Part shown: piece by piece, positions 13,187 to 39,729 of the stretch
Position numbering within the stretch: the stretch's first letter is position 1
Layout: each line of letters begins with the position of its first letter
Source: Desulfobacca acetoxidans DSM 11109
GTDB lineage: Bacteria; Desulfobacterota; Desulfobaccia; Desulfobaccales; Desulfobaccaceae
NCBI RefSeq assembly: GCF_000195295.1
Contig: NC_015388.1
Span: forward strand, 2,790,001-2,854,000
Length of the DNA: 64,000 nucleotides
Direction: 5' to 3'
Translations under genes and position numbers: made by a program
The notes under the pieces: model-generated
Told to the model about the DNA's origin: nothing
The model's input: the letters and a program-made list of their open reading frames with translations, nothing else
Database searches by the model: none

Positions 13187-13512
13187 ATTTTTCTCCTTTC
13201 CTGCCTTTGAATTAAACTGTGTTGCTTAACAAGTTAATCAGCCCCCTAGGCGACTGTCAATACCAGCTCGCTAAGACCTTTCCCTGCACAAAGACAGAAA
13301 CTCCAAGTCTGTCACCATCCGGGGCTCCGCATGACGCAGACCTGGAGATCTGCGCCACCGATTTTCTGGCAGAATGGACGCTTCATAGCAAAACGATATG
13401 ATTTTCTTGCCTGTTCAGTTGGTATTTTCTGTCTAATATTACTAGACCATAAGTCTCGTCGGTTGCAGCCTAAACCGAACCTGGTATAATATATTCAATA
13501 GAGGAGAACTTC
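13187..13512. other. Intergenic region with palindromes and a promoter
   Basis: This 326-bp region contains two small palindromes, GACAGA...TCTGTC near 13283-13305 and CGCAGACCTGGAGATCTGCG at 13335-13354. The second belongs to a palindrome family also seen near 33.1 kb. A sigma-70-type promoter for the gene at 13513 follows (listed separately). No further gene is seen. Confidence 0.5.
13463..13490 (+). promoter_or_regulatory. Sigma-70-type promoter
   Basis: TTGCAG (13463-13468), a 16-bp spacer and perfect TATAAT (13485-13490) stand 22 bp before the ATG of the zinc-ribbon-like gene, which would have a very short leader. Confidence 0.65.
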
Positions 13513-19830: not shown

Positions 19831-21006
19831 CTAACCTGCCGTCTGCTTGGCTGACGGCTCCTTGCGGGGTCGCATCTTCAACAGTTTGGTCTGCACCTGC
19901 TGCTCCAGATTCGACATCTTCTCTTGCATCGCCCCTACCTTGAGACGGAGATCACTGACATCGTCGTCCAGGCGGAATACCCGCTCTTCATCAACCTTTT
20001 TATCTCTCAGGAACTTTAAATCCTCATCAATGCGGTTGAACCGATGGACTTGATCGTTCAGACGCTCCCGGACGAGATTTAACTGGACGTCAATATTTCT
20101 CAGGTTTTCATCCAGTCGTTTGTCCATAGTCTTGGAAAAATCATCGAACCGCCGATTCATCTCCCCGCGGAAGTCATCGAAACGGTCTTTCAATTCTACC
20201 CGATAATCGCTAAACCGGGCATTCATGTCGGCCCGCAATTCTTCAGCCCGGGCGTTCATGTCGGCCCGTAGCTCCTCAAATCGGGCATTCATTTCAATAG
20301 CCCGGGCATTCATATCTTCTCGCAGGTCCTCAACCCGGGCTTTCATTTCAGCAGCCCGGGCGTTCATGTCGACCCGTAAGTCATCAAATCGGGCATTCAT
20401 TTCAATAGCCCGGGCATTCATATCTTCTCGCAGGTCCTCAACCCGGGCTTTCATTTCAGCAGCCCGGGCGTTCATGTCGACCCGTAAGTCATCAAATCGG
20501 GCATTCATTTCAATAGCCCGGGCATTCATATCTTCTCGCAGGTCCTCAACCCGGGCCTTCATTTCAGCAGCCCGGGCGTTCATGTCGACCCGTAAGTCAT
20601 CAAATCGGGCATTCATTTCCGCAGCCCGGACATTCATTTCCGCCCGCAGATCATCGGCCCGGGCGTTCATGTCGACCCGTAGCTCCTCAAATCGGGAGTT
20701 CATATCGACCCGTAAGTCATCAAATCGGGCTTTCATTTCCGCAGCCCGGGCGTTCATGTCAGCCCGCAGGTCATCAAATCGGGCATTCATGTCAGCAGCT
20801 CGATCCTTCATTTCCGCCCGCAGGTCATCGGCCCGGGCATTCATATCAGCCCGCAGGTCATCGAACCGCTTATCCATTGCGTCAAGCCGCTTCTCGATGC
20901 CGTCCAAGCGGACCAGGATAACCTTCTGCGTTTCGCGGATAGCGGCCAGTTCCGGAAAAATAACCGCCTTGATACTCTCAATGATCTTACCACTGGCTTC
21001 CGTCAT
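19831..21006 (-). CDS. Long repetitive coiled-coil protein
   Basis: This 391-residue, highly charged protein has no signal peptide. From residue 48 to about 280 it is built from alternating 11- and 7-residue units such as RFDDLRADMNA and RAAEMKA, an 18-residue period (five helical turns). Three copies of a 36-residue unit are nearly identical in DNA. The N-terminus has a hydrophobic patch (IKAVIFPELAAI) and the C-terminus a different, less regular helix. It lies between ilvH and ilvC on the same strand, 39 bp after ilvH and 78 bp before ilvC. The function is unknown; a rod-like spacer or cell-envelope/cytoskeletal role is guesswork. Confidence 0.85.
   Translation of the reverse strand: MTEASGKIIESIKAVIFPELAAIRETQKVILVRLDGIEKRLDAMDKRFDDLRADMNARADDLRAEMKDRAADMNARFDDLRADMNARAAEMKARFDDLRVDMNSRFEELRVDMNARADDLRAEMNVRAAEMNARFDDLRVDMNARAAEMKARVEDLREDMNARAIEMNARFDDLRVDMNARAAEMKARVEDLREDMNARAIEMNARFDDLRVDMNARAAEMKARVEDLREDMNARAIEMNARFEELRADMNARAEELRADMNARFSDYRVELKDRFDDFRGEMNRRFDDFSKTMDKRLDENLRNIDVQLNLVRERLNDQVHRFNRIDEDLKFLRDKKVDEERVFRLDDDVSDLRLKVGAMQEKMSNLEQQVQTKLLKMRPRKEPSAKQTAG
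20283..20606. repeat. Three tandem 108-bp repeats inside the coiled-coil gene
   Basis: Copies start at 20283, 20391 and 20499, each beginning GGGCATTCATTTCAATAGCC. They differ by single bases (for example GGGCTTTC versus GGGCCTTC). They encode 36 residues each and keep the frame. The low divergence points to recent expansion and probable length variation between strains. Confidence 0.9.
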
Positions 21007-30753: not shown

Positions 30754-30983
30754 TATCAACACTCCAAGTCAGTTATTGGAAATAAAGCCAGAACCTCGGC
30801 AAGATTCTCACGCCTACTTTCGGCAACCTTATATCAGTATAAAGTGTAAGATTCTTGCAAAATAGAGGTTTTTGTCATGTTGAACGTAGTAAAAGATCTA
30901 TATCTCGTTGAAAAGAGCAGATTCTTCGCTAAAACTCCGAATGACCAGTAAGAGAGAAATCAGTTTTGTAAGAGCCTTAATGG

Positions 30984-31547
30984 TCAAAGGATATTGAGCT
31001 CCCGAGCGATCAAAATAGCCGACAACGTAAATACATCCGTTATCTCACCCTTTTTTATGGATTCAAGAACTTCACTTACTGGAAACCATTGAAATCTCGA
31101 GGTCTCGTTATCTGTTGGAAGCGTATGTTCCTGTCCTGTAAAAGTCAAAGCCGCATAAAGCTGGACTTCGGAAGATAAAAGCCCACTGTTTGGATGAACT
31201 TTACTTAACTCTACCAACTTACAAAATTTATCTGAAATTCCCGTCTCTTCTTCCAACTCTCTCAGCGCCTGCTGCCTGGAATCAGTATCTGGCGCCGCAA
31301 AACCTCTGGGTATTTCCCATACTTCTTCGCCAATCGGATAACGGAACTGGCGCACTAATCCCACTTTTCCATCCATGATTGGCAGAACTGCAACACCCTG
31401 TTTACCTTTGCACTCCATAATCCGATTGTATCGCCCCATATGTCCATTGGGAAATCTAACCCGATCAAAGTAGAGCTCTACCCAAGGATTGTTCGGATCG
31501 GAATAAACCAATATTTCCTCTTCCCGCTTGATATCATTCTCAAACAT
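30984..31547 (-). CDS. Nudix hydrolase with altered Nudix box
   Basis: The 187-residue protein resembles ADP-ribose pyrophosphatases: QFRYPIGEEVWEIPRG ahead of the Nudix helix and HPNSGLLSSEVQLYAA after it. The box reads GFAAPD-T-DSRQQAL-RELEEETGI: the REuxEE part is intact but the first conserved Glu is Thr. It overlaps the 423-residue gene by 8 bp, so the two are translated together. It probably cleaves a nucleoside diphosphate derivative. Confidence 0.85.
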   Translation of the reverse strand: MFENDIKREEEILVYSDPNNPWVELYFDRVRFPNGHMGRYNRIMECKGKQGVAVLPIMDGKVGLVRQFRYPIGEEVWEIPRGFAAPDTDSRQQALRELEEETGISDKFCKLVELSKVHPNSGLLSSEVQLYAALTFTGQEHTLPTDNETSRFQWFPVSEVLESIKKGEITDVFTLSAILIARELNIL

Positions 31548-32811
31548 CGGTTCTTCCCCTGGCGATTTTTATTATTCTTTCAGTAACGTATGATGACTGT
31601 AATTTTTCCGCTTTATTCGTTTTATATTTTAAAAAATTTTTGAAAATAATTTCTAGTGGATAACCTAATATTGATATAATAGGGTTGATATCTTGTATGC
31701 AAAGCGCAACCACTCCTGGTGCCATCCCGATTAGTAATCTAAGTAGATCACCTTCCCAATCTGATGATTTTATTGCTATATTATTTACAAAAGGTTCCAT
31801 TCCTTTTCTTAAACAATTCTTATCTCCCTCTTTCCACCAGTGATTCAAGGCTGAATTAGCAACTTTAAATATATCTCTATATTTCCCGTTATCTAACTTA
31901 CCAAGTTCGCTAATAATATCTGGTTGATAAATAAATATATCAGCCTCCCGATCTAATGTCGTAGAAGGCATACGAATTTGACTTAAAGTATAATCAACTG
32001 ATTCAAATGTACTACAGTTATGCTGTGTGGCAATTGTGGCAAGATAACAACGATCATACCAGTTCCAAATTCTTATGAGTTCATTTTTATCACTTTCACT
32101 TCTTTCTGCACTATATGACTTCTTAACTTCTGACTCGATTGAACTTCTATTATTGTAATTATACTTAATAAAATTAGAAAAATCTGTTGCAAGGCCCGGT
32201 GTTAAAATTCCGGTCTCTTGTTGTCTTTCAGTTAATAATTGTGAGATTGTGTTGTCAAAAGAAAACTCTGAATTCCAAGGCCTTGTGCATAAATAACTTT
32301 TTTTTTGCGCCTCAAACCAAACCGCCCAGCTATTTTCTAATCTTTCTACATTTTCCTTATCAACCTCCATTTCACGAAATAATTTTAGAATATCCGTCCA
32401 ATCTGTTACTTCGCTTTCCGACCTCTTTTCCAATTCTTCAGTTACATGTTCTCTTTGTTCATCATCTTCAATAGCGGAAAATTGGAAAGATTTCAGTTTG
32501 TCAGCGCCGGTTTTTTTTACAAGTCCTATAAGAGCCTCTTCTAATCCTTCAGACCGCGTCCTTATCTCAATGGGAGGGTCATTGTCTTCATCGGATCGCT
32601 TGACAAATTCCAACAACTCGTTTGGAGTTTCATCAAGGAAATATCTCCCGTCCAAAATCATTGCATCTGTGAGAACCAACTTCTTGTGTAAAAGGGTATC
32701 TAATCTCAGGCGACCCCGGAACAATTCGCGGTCCTTATCACGTTCAGTAGAAGGAACGCGCTGCCGCACGCTATCATAAAAGTTTGCTAGAAGGCGTGAT
32801 TCTTTTTCCAT
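31540..32811 (-). CDS. Unknown 423-residue protein coupled to a Nudix gene
   Basis: A strong ribosome site (AAAGGAGAAATCTA) precedes the ATG. The protein is mainly helical and charged. An N-terminal block with LLHKKLVLTDAMILDGRYFL looks conserved in style (residues 36-60). A Glu/Asp-rich middle follows, and a more hydrophobic C-terminal segment near 355-395 (LLIGMAPGVVALCIQDINP). No known motif is recognised. The DNA is far more AT-rich than its neighbours, and it sits with the Nudix gene inside the sugar-nucleotide region, pointing to horizontal acquisition; a defence or stress module is one guess. Confidence 0.8.
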   Translation of the reverse strand: MEKESRLLANFYDSVRQRVPSTERDKDRELFRGRLRLDTLLHKKLVLTDAMILDGRYFLDETPNELLEFVKRSDEDNDPPIEIRTRSEGLEEALIGLVKKTGADKLKSFQFSAIEDDEQREHVTEELEKRSESEVTDWTDILKLFREMEVDKENVERLENSWAVWFEAQKKSYLCTRPWNSEFSFDNTISQLLTERQQETGILTPGLATDFSNFIKYNYNNRSSIESEVKKSYSAERSESDKNELIRIWNWYDRCYLATIATQHNCSTFESVDYTLSQIRMPSTTLDREADIFIYQPDIISELGKLDNGKYRDIFKVANSALNHWWKEGDKNCLRKGMEPFVNNIAIKSSDWEGDLLRLLIGMAPGVVALCIQDINPIISILGYPLEIIFKNFLKYKTNKAEKLQSSYVTERIIKIARGRTDV

Positions 32812-33250
32812 TAGATTTCTCCTTTATGATTTTCAAAGAATAGTTCGTTCCATTCAAACATTTTTCTAAGATAAAAGTGCGAAGAAATATTTAATTGATA
32901 ATACCATAAATTGGAAATTTTTACGTGTTTTTTTGTGTCATTATTACATATCAATATTGATTCATTTTGCGACAGTCTCAAATCAGAGGATAATTTTTAA
33001 TATACAAAAAAAAGTTCAAAATCCAAAATTTCCTTGATTGACCCACGTTGCCATTAATTTATATCATAAAGCATTGAAATATTAATCTTCGCCCTCCAGG
33101 GGAGAATCAGGATAGAATAAATGACCTGGTAGATCAGACCTCCAGGTCTGACCGACATCTTTCCCGCCAGACCTGGAGGTCTGGCACTACCAGTGAAATA
33201 TTATGAATTGTTAGGGACTTCGCTCACTGTCCCAAAAAGGTGTGTCAACT
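32812..33250. other. AT-rich non-coding region with a palindrome pair
   Basis: This 439-bp region lies between the divergent 423-residue gene and rmlB. Bases 32820-33080 are very AT-rich and hold no supported gene. Two complementary palindromes follow (listed separately), then GGGACTTCGCTCACTGTCCC, a small hairpin just before rmlB. Confidence 0.5.
33135..33184. repeat. Paired GACCTCCAGGTC palindromes
   Basis: CAGACCTCCAGGTCTG (33135-33150) and its complement CAGACCTGGAGGTCTG (33169-33184) are each near-palindromic and together form a long hairpin. A related palindrome is at 13335-13354. Confidence 0.65.
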
Positions 33251-36017: not shown

Positions 36018-36968
36018 TCAGAGATAAACAATCCCGATAACGGACCGGGAGACGCGATGCAGAACACCGCTGGAGACGCTGCCAAGAATCAGTTGCTTTA
36101 AAGAGGATAGCCCCCGGGCCCCCATCAAGACCAGAGCATAGCTCCCCTCTTCAGCTTCTTCAGCAATAATTCGGGGAGGTTCTCCAACCTGCAGCCTTTC
36201 CTCCACTTCTCCTGGGAAACCTGCCTCCAGTAGAATGGCATGGCTGTCCGCCAGGATTTTTTCTCCATCGCGCACCAATACATTTGCCTCATTCATTGAG
36301 GCGGTTATTTGGACAATTTCCATTACGTACAAAAGATTCAGTCGAGGTTGGCAGGCACGCAATCCTTGGGCCAGTACTGCTCCCTGACGGACCGCCTCAC
36401 GGCTCGGCTCCGAACCATCCACCGGCAAAAGCAAAGGAGAAATGGGACAGTCTGGATTGAAAACCGCTTCCAAACCAACCACAAAAACAGTCTTTTTCTG
36501 GGCCAGAGACAAGACCTGACGGGTCACGCTTCCCAGAAACAGTTCCTTTACCGGAGATAATCCCCGCCGGCCCATGACGATGGCGCTATATCCGCCCTCA
36601 TCGGCCAATCGGCTGATCTCTTCTCCGATCTTCCCCTCGGCAACCCTGGTCTCAATAGGGACCGATACACCTTTTTCTTGTAAAAACCGTTTGCCCTCTT
36701 CCAAAAGCGGCATGATTTCATGATCAAGGTGGTATTGTCGTATCCGGCGCCAGGCTGCGACCTGGTCCATGCGGGTCACCCGCAGGTCCACGTTTTGAAT
36801 GTGCCGGGCCAGATACCCGCCGCCGATGACCCGAAGCAGGGTGACCTTTTCTACCGAATCGCTTCCGATCTGGGCCAAACATGCGGCCCACTCCACGGCC
36901 TTCTTTGCCGAAGGGCTGCCATCATAGGGAATGAGTATGCGGTTTAAAGGATATGAACAGATTTCCAT
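36018..36968 (-). CDS. Tandem-domain universal stress protein (intact copy)
   Basis: The 316-residue protein has two UspA domains, each with an ATP-binding signature: GRRGLSPVKELFLGS near residue 146 and GARGLSSLKQLILGS near residue 290. The N-terminus RILIPYDGSPSAKKAVEWA is typical. Its upstream 645 coding bases and leader are duplicated almost perfectly at 38855-39663. It is the outer, probably ancestral copy relative to the inserted methyltransferases. Confidence 0.92.
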   Translation of the reverse strand: MEICSYPLNRILIPYDGSPSAKKAVEWAACLAQIGSDSVEKVTLLRVIGGGYLARHIQNVDLRVTRMDQVAAWRRIRQYHLDHEIMPLLEEGKRFLQEKGVSVPIETRVAEGKIGEEISRLADEGGYSAIVMGRRGLSPVKELFLGSVTRQVLSLAQKKTVFVVGLEAVFNPDCPISPLLLPVDGSEPSREAVRQGAVLAQGLRACQPRLNLLYVMEIVQITASMNEANVLVRDGEKILADSHAILLEAGFPGEVEERLQVGEPPRIIAEEAEEGSYALVLMGARGLSSLKQLILGSVSSGVLHRVSRSVIGIVYL

Positions 36969-37132
36969 GATACGACCTCATGGTTATGCTCAAATGGAAG
37001 GTTTATACCTGTAGGTCCTAAATCTATTGTATTATATTCCTGTTCAAAAAGACATCTTCTAAAAAGAGTATTGGGAAAAAGCAAAGGCCCTCTTCCCGAC
37101 GAAAGACGGCCTTTTTGAGATCTGGCTCCCCG
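36324..37132. repeat. 809-bp direct repeat, copy A
   Basis: This segment is about 99% identical to 38855-39663 at a constant offset of 2531 bp. It covers most of the stress-protein gene, its leader, a terminator hairpin, and the last ten bases of a tRNA-Asn gene (CGGGGAGCCA on the minus strand, 37123-37132). The match ends sharply at both sides. Confidence 0.95.
37083..37114 (-). terminator. Terminator-like hairpin (repeat copy A)
   Basis: On the minus strand AAAGGCC...GGCCTTT with an inner TCTT/AAGA stem is followed by GCTTTTT. It is the duplicate of the hairpin behind tRNA-Asn at 39614-39645. Confidence 0.6.
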
Positions 37133-38842: not shown

Positions 38843-39499
38843 TCAATCGTCCGGTACGTACAAAAGATTCAGTCGAGGTTGGCAGGCACGCAATCCTTGG
38901 GCCAGTACTGCTCCCTGACGGACCGCCTCCCGGCTCGGCTCCGAACCATCCACCGGCAAAAGCAAAGGAGAAATGGGACAGTCTGGATTGAAAACCGCTT
39001 CCAAACCAACCACAAAAACAGTCTTTTTCTGGGCCAGAGACAAGACCTGACGGGTCACGCTTCCCAGAAACAGTTCCTTTACCGGAGATAATCCCCGCCG
39101 GCCCATGACGATGGCGCTATATCCGCCCTCATCGGCCAATCGGCTGATCTCTTCTCCGATCTTCCCCTCGGCAACCCTGGTCTCAATAGGGACCGATACA
39201 CCTTTTTCTTGTAAAAACCGTTTGCCCTCTTCCAAAAGCGGCATGATTTCATGATCAAGGTGGTATTGTCGTATCCGGCGCCAGGCTGCGACCTGGTCCA
39301 TGCGGGTCACGCGCAGGTCCACGTTTTGAATGTGCCGGGCCAGATACCCGCCGCCGATGACCCGAAGCAGGGTGACCTTTTCTACCGAATCGCTTCCGAT
39401 CTGGGCCAAACATGCAGCCCACTCCACGGCCTTCTTTGCCGAAGGGCTGCCATCATAGGGAATAAGTATGCGATCAAAAGGATATGAACAGATTTCCAT
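38843..39499 (-). CDS. Truncated duplicate of the universal stress protein
   Basis: This 218-residue frame copies residues 1-215 of the intact gene and then stops three residues after the repeat border. It keeps the whole first UspA domain with its GRRG...GS ATP motif and loses most of the second. It retains the start and ribosome site, so it may be expressed as a single-domain protein, or may be a bystander of the duplication. Confidence 0.85.
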   Translation of the reverse strand: MEICSYPFDRILIPYDGSPSAKKAVEWAACLAQIGSDSVEKVTLLRVIGGGYLARHIQNVDLRVTRMDQVAAWRRIRQYHLDHEIMPLLEEGKRFLQEKGVSVPIETRVAEGKIGEEISRLADEGGYSAIVMGRRGLSPVKELFLGSVTRQVLSLAQKKTVFVVGLEAVFNPDCPISPLLLPVDGSEPSREAVRQGAVLAQGLRACQPRLNLLYVPDD

Positions 39500-39653
39500 G
39501 ATACGACTTCATGGTTATGCTCAAATGGAAGGTTTATACCTGTAGGTCCTAAATCTATTGTATTATATTCCTGTTCAAAAAGACATCTTCTAAAAAGAGT
39601 ATTGCGAAAAAGCAAAGGCCCTCTTCCCGACGAAAGACGGCCTTTTTGAGATC

Positions 39654-39663
<10 letters not shown>
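38855..39663. repeat. 809-bp direct repeat, copy B
   Basis: This copy is contiguous with the complete tRNA-Asn gene at its right end. It differs from copy A at only a handful of positions (for example 39310 region CACGCG versus CACCCG, and AGTATGCGATC versus AGTATGCGGTT). Confidence 0.95.
39614..39645 (-). terminator. Intrinsic terminator downstream of tRNA-Asn
   Basis: AAAGGCC/GGCCTTT stem with an inner TCTT/AAGA stem and a GCTTTTT tail on the minus strand, just after the tRNA-Asn 3' end. Confidence 0.65.

Positions 39664-39729
<66 letters not shown>

Follow-up and report, generated by a model that had tools for sequence, protein, structure and literature searches.

An undescribed gene pair of a fast-diverging orphan protein and a Nudix hydrolase in Desulfobacca acetoxidans and three other genomes

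The genome of Desulfobacca acetoxidans DSM 11109 consists of one contig of 3,282,536 bases, of which positions 2,790,001–2,854,000 (64,000 nucleotides, hereafter the window) were analyzed. Two minus-strand genes, encoding an orphan protein (P0001) and a Nudix hydrolase (P0002), were found flanked by dTDP-sugar genes, with rfbA (RmlA) and an epimerase gene on one side and rmlB/C/D on the other (Table 1). The coordinates and the sugar-cluster setting given for them in a first-pass annotation were thus correct. An AAGGAG motif is located about 8 nt upstream of the P0001 start codon, and the Nudix gene has an AGGGGA-type ribosome site that sits inside the 3' end of the orphan gene. Because of this site, and because the two reading frames overlap by 8 nt, translational coupling of the pair, as previously proposed, is likely.

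Table 1. Features of the window; positions count from its first letter, except for the landmarks, which are given as residues of P0001
Feature	Position	Strand	Remarks
Orphan protein gene (P0001, 423 aa)	32811-31540	minus	first gene of the pair; ATG start
Nudix hydrolase gene (P0002, 187 aa)	31547-30984	minus	second gene of the pair
Reading-frame overlap, 8 nt, ATGTTTGA	31540-31547	minus	orphan and Nudix genes
Upstream intergenic stretch, 34% GC	32812-33241		AT-rich; holds the palindrome pair
Downstream intergenic stretch, 38% GC	30763-30983		AT-rich
P0001 landmarks	DSVR 13-16; L47-T48; D54; L59; F109..S112; D253..Y256		common to all four orphans
Palindromes CAGACCTSSAGGTCTG	33135-33150 and 33168-33183		17 nt apart
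Near-copy of the palindrome	13337-13352
Direct duplication, 809 bp	36324-37132 and 38855-39663		98.9% identical
tRNA-Asn gene	39654-39729
Internal tandem-like repeats	20156-20868		shifted copies 68-89% identical

The base composition of the pair contrasts sharply with that of its surroundings, as had also been noticed. The GC content is 0.361 for the orphan gene (0.29 at third codon positions) and 0.436 for the Nudix gene (0.415 at third positions), versus 0.50–0.56 for neighbouring genes and 0.531 for the 20–45 kb part of the window. The upstream intergenic stretch is probably both the promoter side and a border of the foreign stretch, the downstream one being its other border. The GC content declines along the orphan gene, the 5' end having 0.47 and the second half about 0.31, as if the gene were a composite of two sources. 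The palindromes beside the island, with their near-copy elsewhere in the window, exceed chance (0.02 copies expected) and are possibly a REP-like element.

Relatives of the two genes were sought in genomes close to the host. No homologue of P0001 was detected in 28 other sampled genomes of the class, and none of P0002 at E 1e-12 in the scanned genomes of the same genus and family. In one genome of the same genus the epimerase gene adjoins rmlB, in another arrangement, and neither island gene was found between them. Within the host genome PF00293 identified only four Nudix domains, of which the three besides P0002 are of other types.

The first-pass annotation described the 423-residue protein as having no recognisable domain, and library searches agreed with this. 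Pfam (searched with the whole protein and with three pieces of it), NCBIfam, PADLOC and PDB sequences gave no domain match for P0001, and a PHROG match was marginal (E 0.012). Direct searches of 395 Desulfobacterota and 392 Planctomycetota genomes produced only weak chance matches, for instance to histidine kinases, and searches of plasmids, phages, viral contigs and GTDB contigs retrieved no homologue.

P0002, by contrast with the orphan, has a readily assigned domain (PF00293, E 2e-14). It carries the REUXEEXGU metal-binding part of the Nudix box by which membership of the superfamily is judged; in the box, GFAAPDTDSRQQALRELEEETGI, R, E, EE and G are retained and T stands where the first glutamate would be. 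Further marks of its subfamily are RFPNGHMGRYNRI, EIPRG and GEITDVFTLSA. Among proteins of solved structure, ADP-ribose pyrophosphatases match it best (E 1e-11), so that the label of a nucleotide-clearing enzyme given to it earlier seems reasonable, and P0002 probably cleaves ADP-ribose-like molecules. It shares the Nudix domain with the ADP-ribose/ADP-sugar pyrophosphatases, such as those of T. thermophilus, the M. tuberculosis ADPRase and E. coli NudE, but scores far under every NCBIfam equivalog cut-off (44.6 bits, versus 169 for NudE). Unlike these enzymes, which have EIPAG and DGKT, P0002 and the other Nudix proteins of its branch, described below, have E[IFL]PRG and GxIxDxFTL, and the first glutamate of the P0002 box is replaced by T.

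When P0002 was used as bait, its best relative among 198 sampled Desulfobacterota was a Nudix protein of genome G085 (P0004), whose gene has an AT-rich orphan directly upstream (P0003, 392 aa). A profile of these two Nudix proteins led to a second genome of Desulfobacterota, G324, with orphan P0005 (514 aa in a gene model that starts at TTG, so that the true start may lie further in) and Nudix P0006. A three-Nudix profile led to a genome of Planctomycetota, G615, with orphan P0007 (459 aa) and Nudix P0008. The orphan gene comes first and the Nudix gene second, on the same strand, in all four genomes, which belong to two phyla, and the gap between them is −8 nt in the window and 3, 1 and 11 nt in G085, G324 and G615, respectively. 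The metal-binding REUXEE glutamates are kept in every one of the four Nudix boxes. The lack of a conserved association had been set beforehand as an outcome that would speak against the pair; instead, the association is conserved in order, strand and tight spacing, and orphan and Nudix constitute a real, conserved and undescribed gene pair.

The GC content of the module is 10–18 points under that of its flanks in three of the four loci, the pair of G615 having a host-like composition (69% GC), and the unit has a patchy distribution and looks foreign. Its neighbours differ from genome to genome: dTDP-sugar genes in the window and, as read by eye from translations, regulators and RNA-processing genes in G085, a sigma-54 regulator and a purL-like gene in G324, and a DUF2235-like gene in G615. 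None of the four neighbourhoods contained a defence island.

Pairwise comparisons against shuffled sequences were used to ask how the orphans relate to one another. P0003 is clearly homologous to P0007 (Z 23) and to P0005 (Z 8.4) by this measure, and a relationship between P0005 and P0007 (Z 3.8) is more weakly suggested. The case of P0001 is different. Against each of the other orphans its Z was 0.5–2.9, near the shuffled range, and it did not stand out against a profile built from P0003 and P0005. Both observations are what would be expected if P0001 were unrelated to the other orphans and stood before a Nudix gene of this branch by chance. A profile of the three other orphans gave P0001 a weak score of 2.6 bits, reached by 8 of 2,000 shuffles (p about 0.004), and the best-matching stretch was collinear and at the N-terminus. 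In addition, P0001 holds at matching positions four collinear landmarks, D[ST]VR, L[ST]x5Dx4L, FxxS[AG] and DxxY (also given as D[ST]VR, LSxxMxFDS, FxFSAW and DxxYNxVVA). The first two occurred jointly, within the allowed ranges of positions, in 1 of 300,000 shuffles (about 3 per million), an optimistic figure because the patterns had been widened at two positions to admit P0001. The P0001 gene is also immediately followed by a Nudix gene from the E[IFL]PRG branch, is of similar size and overlaps its partner. Given the landmarks, the profile score and the shared position and size, P0001 is very probably a far-diverged member of the orphan family, and its being a chance neighbour is correspondingly improbable.

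Broader searches with the family were negative. PADLOC-DB 2.0.0 contained no match for the three orphans scanned (P0001, P0003 and P0005). Scans with hand-made degenerate motif patterns, derived from an alignment to which invented variants had been added solely to broaden the patterns, revealed no orphan relatives, and viral scans with P0003, with an alignment of a Nudix pair and with the three-orphan alignment were equally blank. The orphans were absent from the plasmids searched, and the two that were also sought in phages were absent from these.

Structure prediction gave a poor model of P0001 alone (pLDDT 42). A second model, of P0003 from a four-row alignment, had a pLDDT of 46 and was of moderate confidence at residues ~28–160 only, so that the Foldseek and VIA-align rows obtained with it carry little weight. 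No Foldseek row reached E 0.001 and no VIA-align row reached Z 5, and no confident fold emerged for the orphan. In the models the orphans look mostly helical, with a better-ordered N-terminal domain. No catalytic signature, effector motif or effector fold was seen. A PIN-like N-terminal domain was considered from a strand followed by the conserved D54 and from a low-probability Foldseek row, 1w8i, which we take to be a PIN-domain protein; it was discarded, no Foldseek or VIA-align row being significant.

The phylogenetic position of the Nudix partners was examined in a tree of 75 Nudix proteins. The four module enzymes fall into one branch of 14 rows (support 100/98) that is separate from 61 ordinary ADPRase-like rows and hence from the housekeeping ADPRases, and within this branch they do not form a clade of their own (3 changes needed). 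All ten other members are plasmid-borne, from Streptomyces, Embleya, Arthrobacter, Pseudarthrobacter, Vibrio and Pseudomonas. An orphan lies upstream of each of the four chromosomal members sampled, loci having been read for the best matches of each search, and a search next to the plasmid Nudix genes revealed nothing orphan-like; the branch is therefore broader than the pair. On Embleya and Streptomyces plasmids, two Nudix genes of the same branch adjoin CHAT-domain genes (L100:518-4028, L101:338-4067), which represent a second type of partner. In these actinobacterial loci the partner, annotated as a CHAT-domain protein, has ~900 aa and no detectable similarity to the orphan. On a plasmid of Pseudomonas sp. 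FeN3W, a NAD-salvage cluster (L055:619-4441; nadE, pncB, isochorismatase and adenylyltransferase genes) holds two Nudix genes, one of which belongs to the module branch.

The explanation that we consider best, and fairly probable, is that the two genes form a cassette that moves horizontally and whose Nudix enzyme acts on an NDP-X compound linked to what the orphan does. The protein from the first gene would diverge fast and be mostly helical, its N-terminal domain being the better-ordered part; the second gene would supply a Nudix hydrolase from a branch of its own, found largely on plasmids and resembling ADP-ribose pyrophosphatases. The two proteins would act jointly, the Nudix enzyme cleaving a nucleoside-diphosphate compound, most likely a NAD or ADP-ribose derivative, that the orphan may make or sense or that may switch it. 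Such a scheme would parallel conflict and toxin–antitoxin modules, in which the action of one gene is paired with clearance or limitation of the signal by the other. A common gene order with tight spacing in four genomes and a common Nudix branch accompany the foreign composition and patchy presence of the unit. Patchy, foreign, with coupled genes and one fast-evolving partner, it has a profile resembling that of conflict cassettes, and by this analogy it could plausibly serve in defence or conflict.

In conflicts, Nudix proteins belong to the established components of NAD/ADP-ribose networks, and examples are published in which they clear NAD/ADPr signals (PMC9503650). The pair resembles the conflict modules with Nudix, Macro or NADAR proteins surveyed there in being mobile and patchy and in having a Nudix protein that could remove a signal derived from NAD or ADP-ribose; it differs in that the orphan has none of their known effector domains in the profile libraries used and in that it has no defence neighbours. 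Precedents of this kind, the CHAT-domain genes adjoining related Nudix genes on plasmids and the build of the unit itself, a small, mobile, translationally coupled pair with one rapidly diverging partner, would all suit an anti-phage or toxin–antitoxin module with the orphan as toxin or abortive-infection effector, working via NAD, ADP-ribose or RNA, and with the Nudix enzyme as antidote or signal-clearing partner. We regard such a module as possible rather than probable, since no defence genes stand beside any of the four copies, the orphan shows no catalytic signature, and orphans are missing from plasmids and, for the two tried, from phages. The one PADLOC match is also non-specific: the candidate PDC-S07 was weakly hit by P0002, P0004 and P0006 (14.7, 29.3 and 16.5 bits), and its identity with the module was rejected when two ordinary Nudix proteins of the same genome scored 38.1 and 21.4 bits, as expected of a generic Nudix match. 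The proposal of an undescribed, defence-like system thus holds in its first part, the pair being undescribed and the orphan in no library tried, whereas its defence-like character runs ahead of the evidence: the four neighbourhoods lack a defence island, PDC-S07 is generic and the orphan displays neither effector fold nor catalytic site.

A role outside conflict would be that of a metabolic or stress accessory, with the Nudix protein as an ordinary house-cleaning enzyme for ADP-sugars or ADP-ribose and the orphan as its regulator or chaperone. The housekeeping character of the neighbourhoods, the ADP-ribose and ADP-sugar pyrophosphatases as closest characterised relatives and the branch member in the Pseudomonas NAD-salvage cluster are consistent with this. 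Such an accessory is nonetheless rather unlikely, as the pair is patchy, foreign and missing from the close relatives sampled, the branch stands apart from housekeeping Nudix proteins and the orphan evolves far faster than expected of a housekeeping partner. The mobile two-gene cassette thus remains our preferred reading. Its boldest form, an undescribed cross-phylum mobile conflict module in which a new, very fast-evolving effector family has its own Nudix enzyme for clearing or tuning a NAD- or ADP-ribose-derived signal, is advanced as a tentative conjecture. If true, it would add a new effector family and its dedicated Nudix partner to bacterial NAD/ADP-ribose biology.

Irrespective of function, our searches of Pfam, NCBIfam, PADLOC, PHROGs and the PDB did not find the orphan family. 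It diverges too rapidly for direct sequence searches to succeed and became visible only via the Nudix partner, which illustrates the general value of a conserved partner as bait and leaves a concrete, testable gene pair.

Two further repeats were observed in the window (Table 1). One consists of internal tandem-like copies. The other, the 809-bp direct duplication, spans most of a universal stress protein gene, with two methyltransferase genes between the copies and the second copy extending up to the tRNA-Asn gene; it looks like a recent duplication or an insertion at the tRNA.
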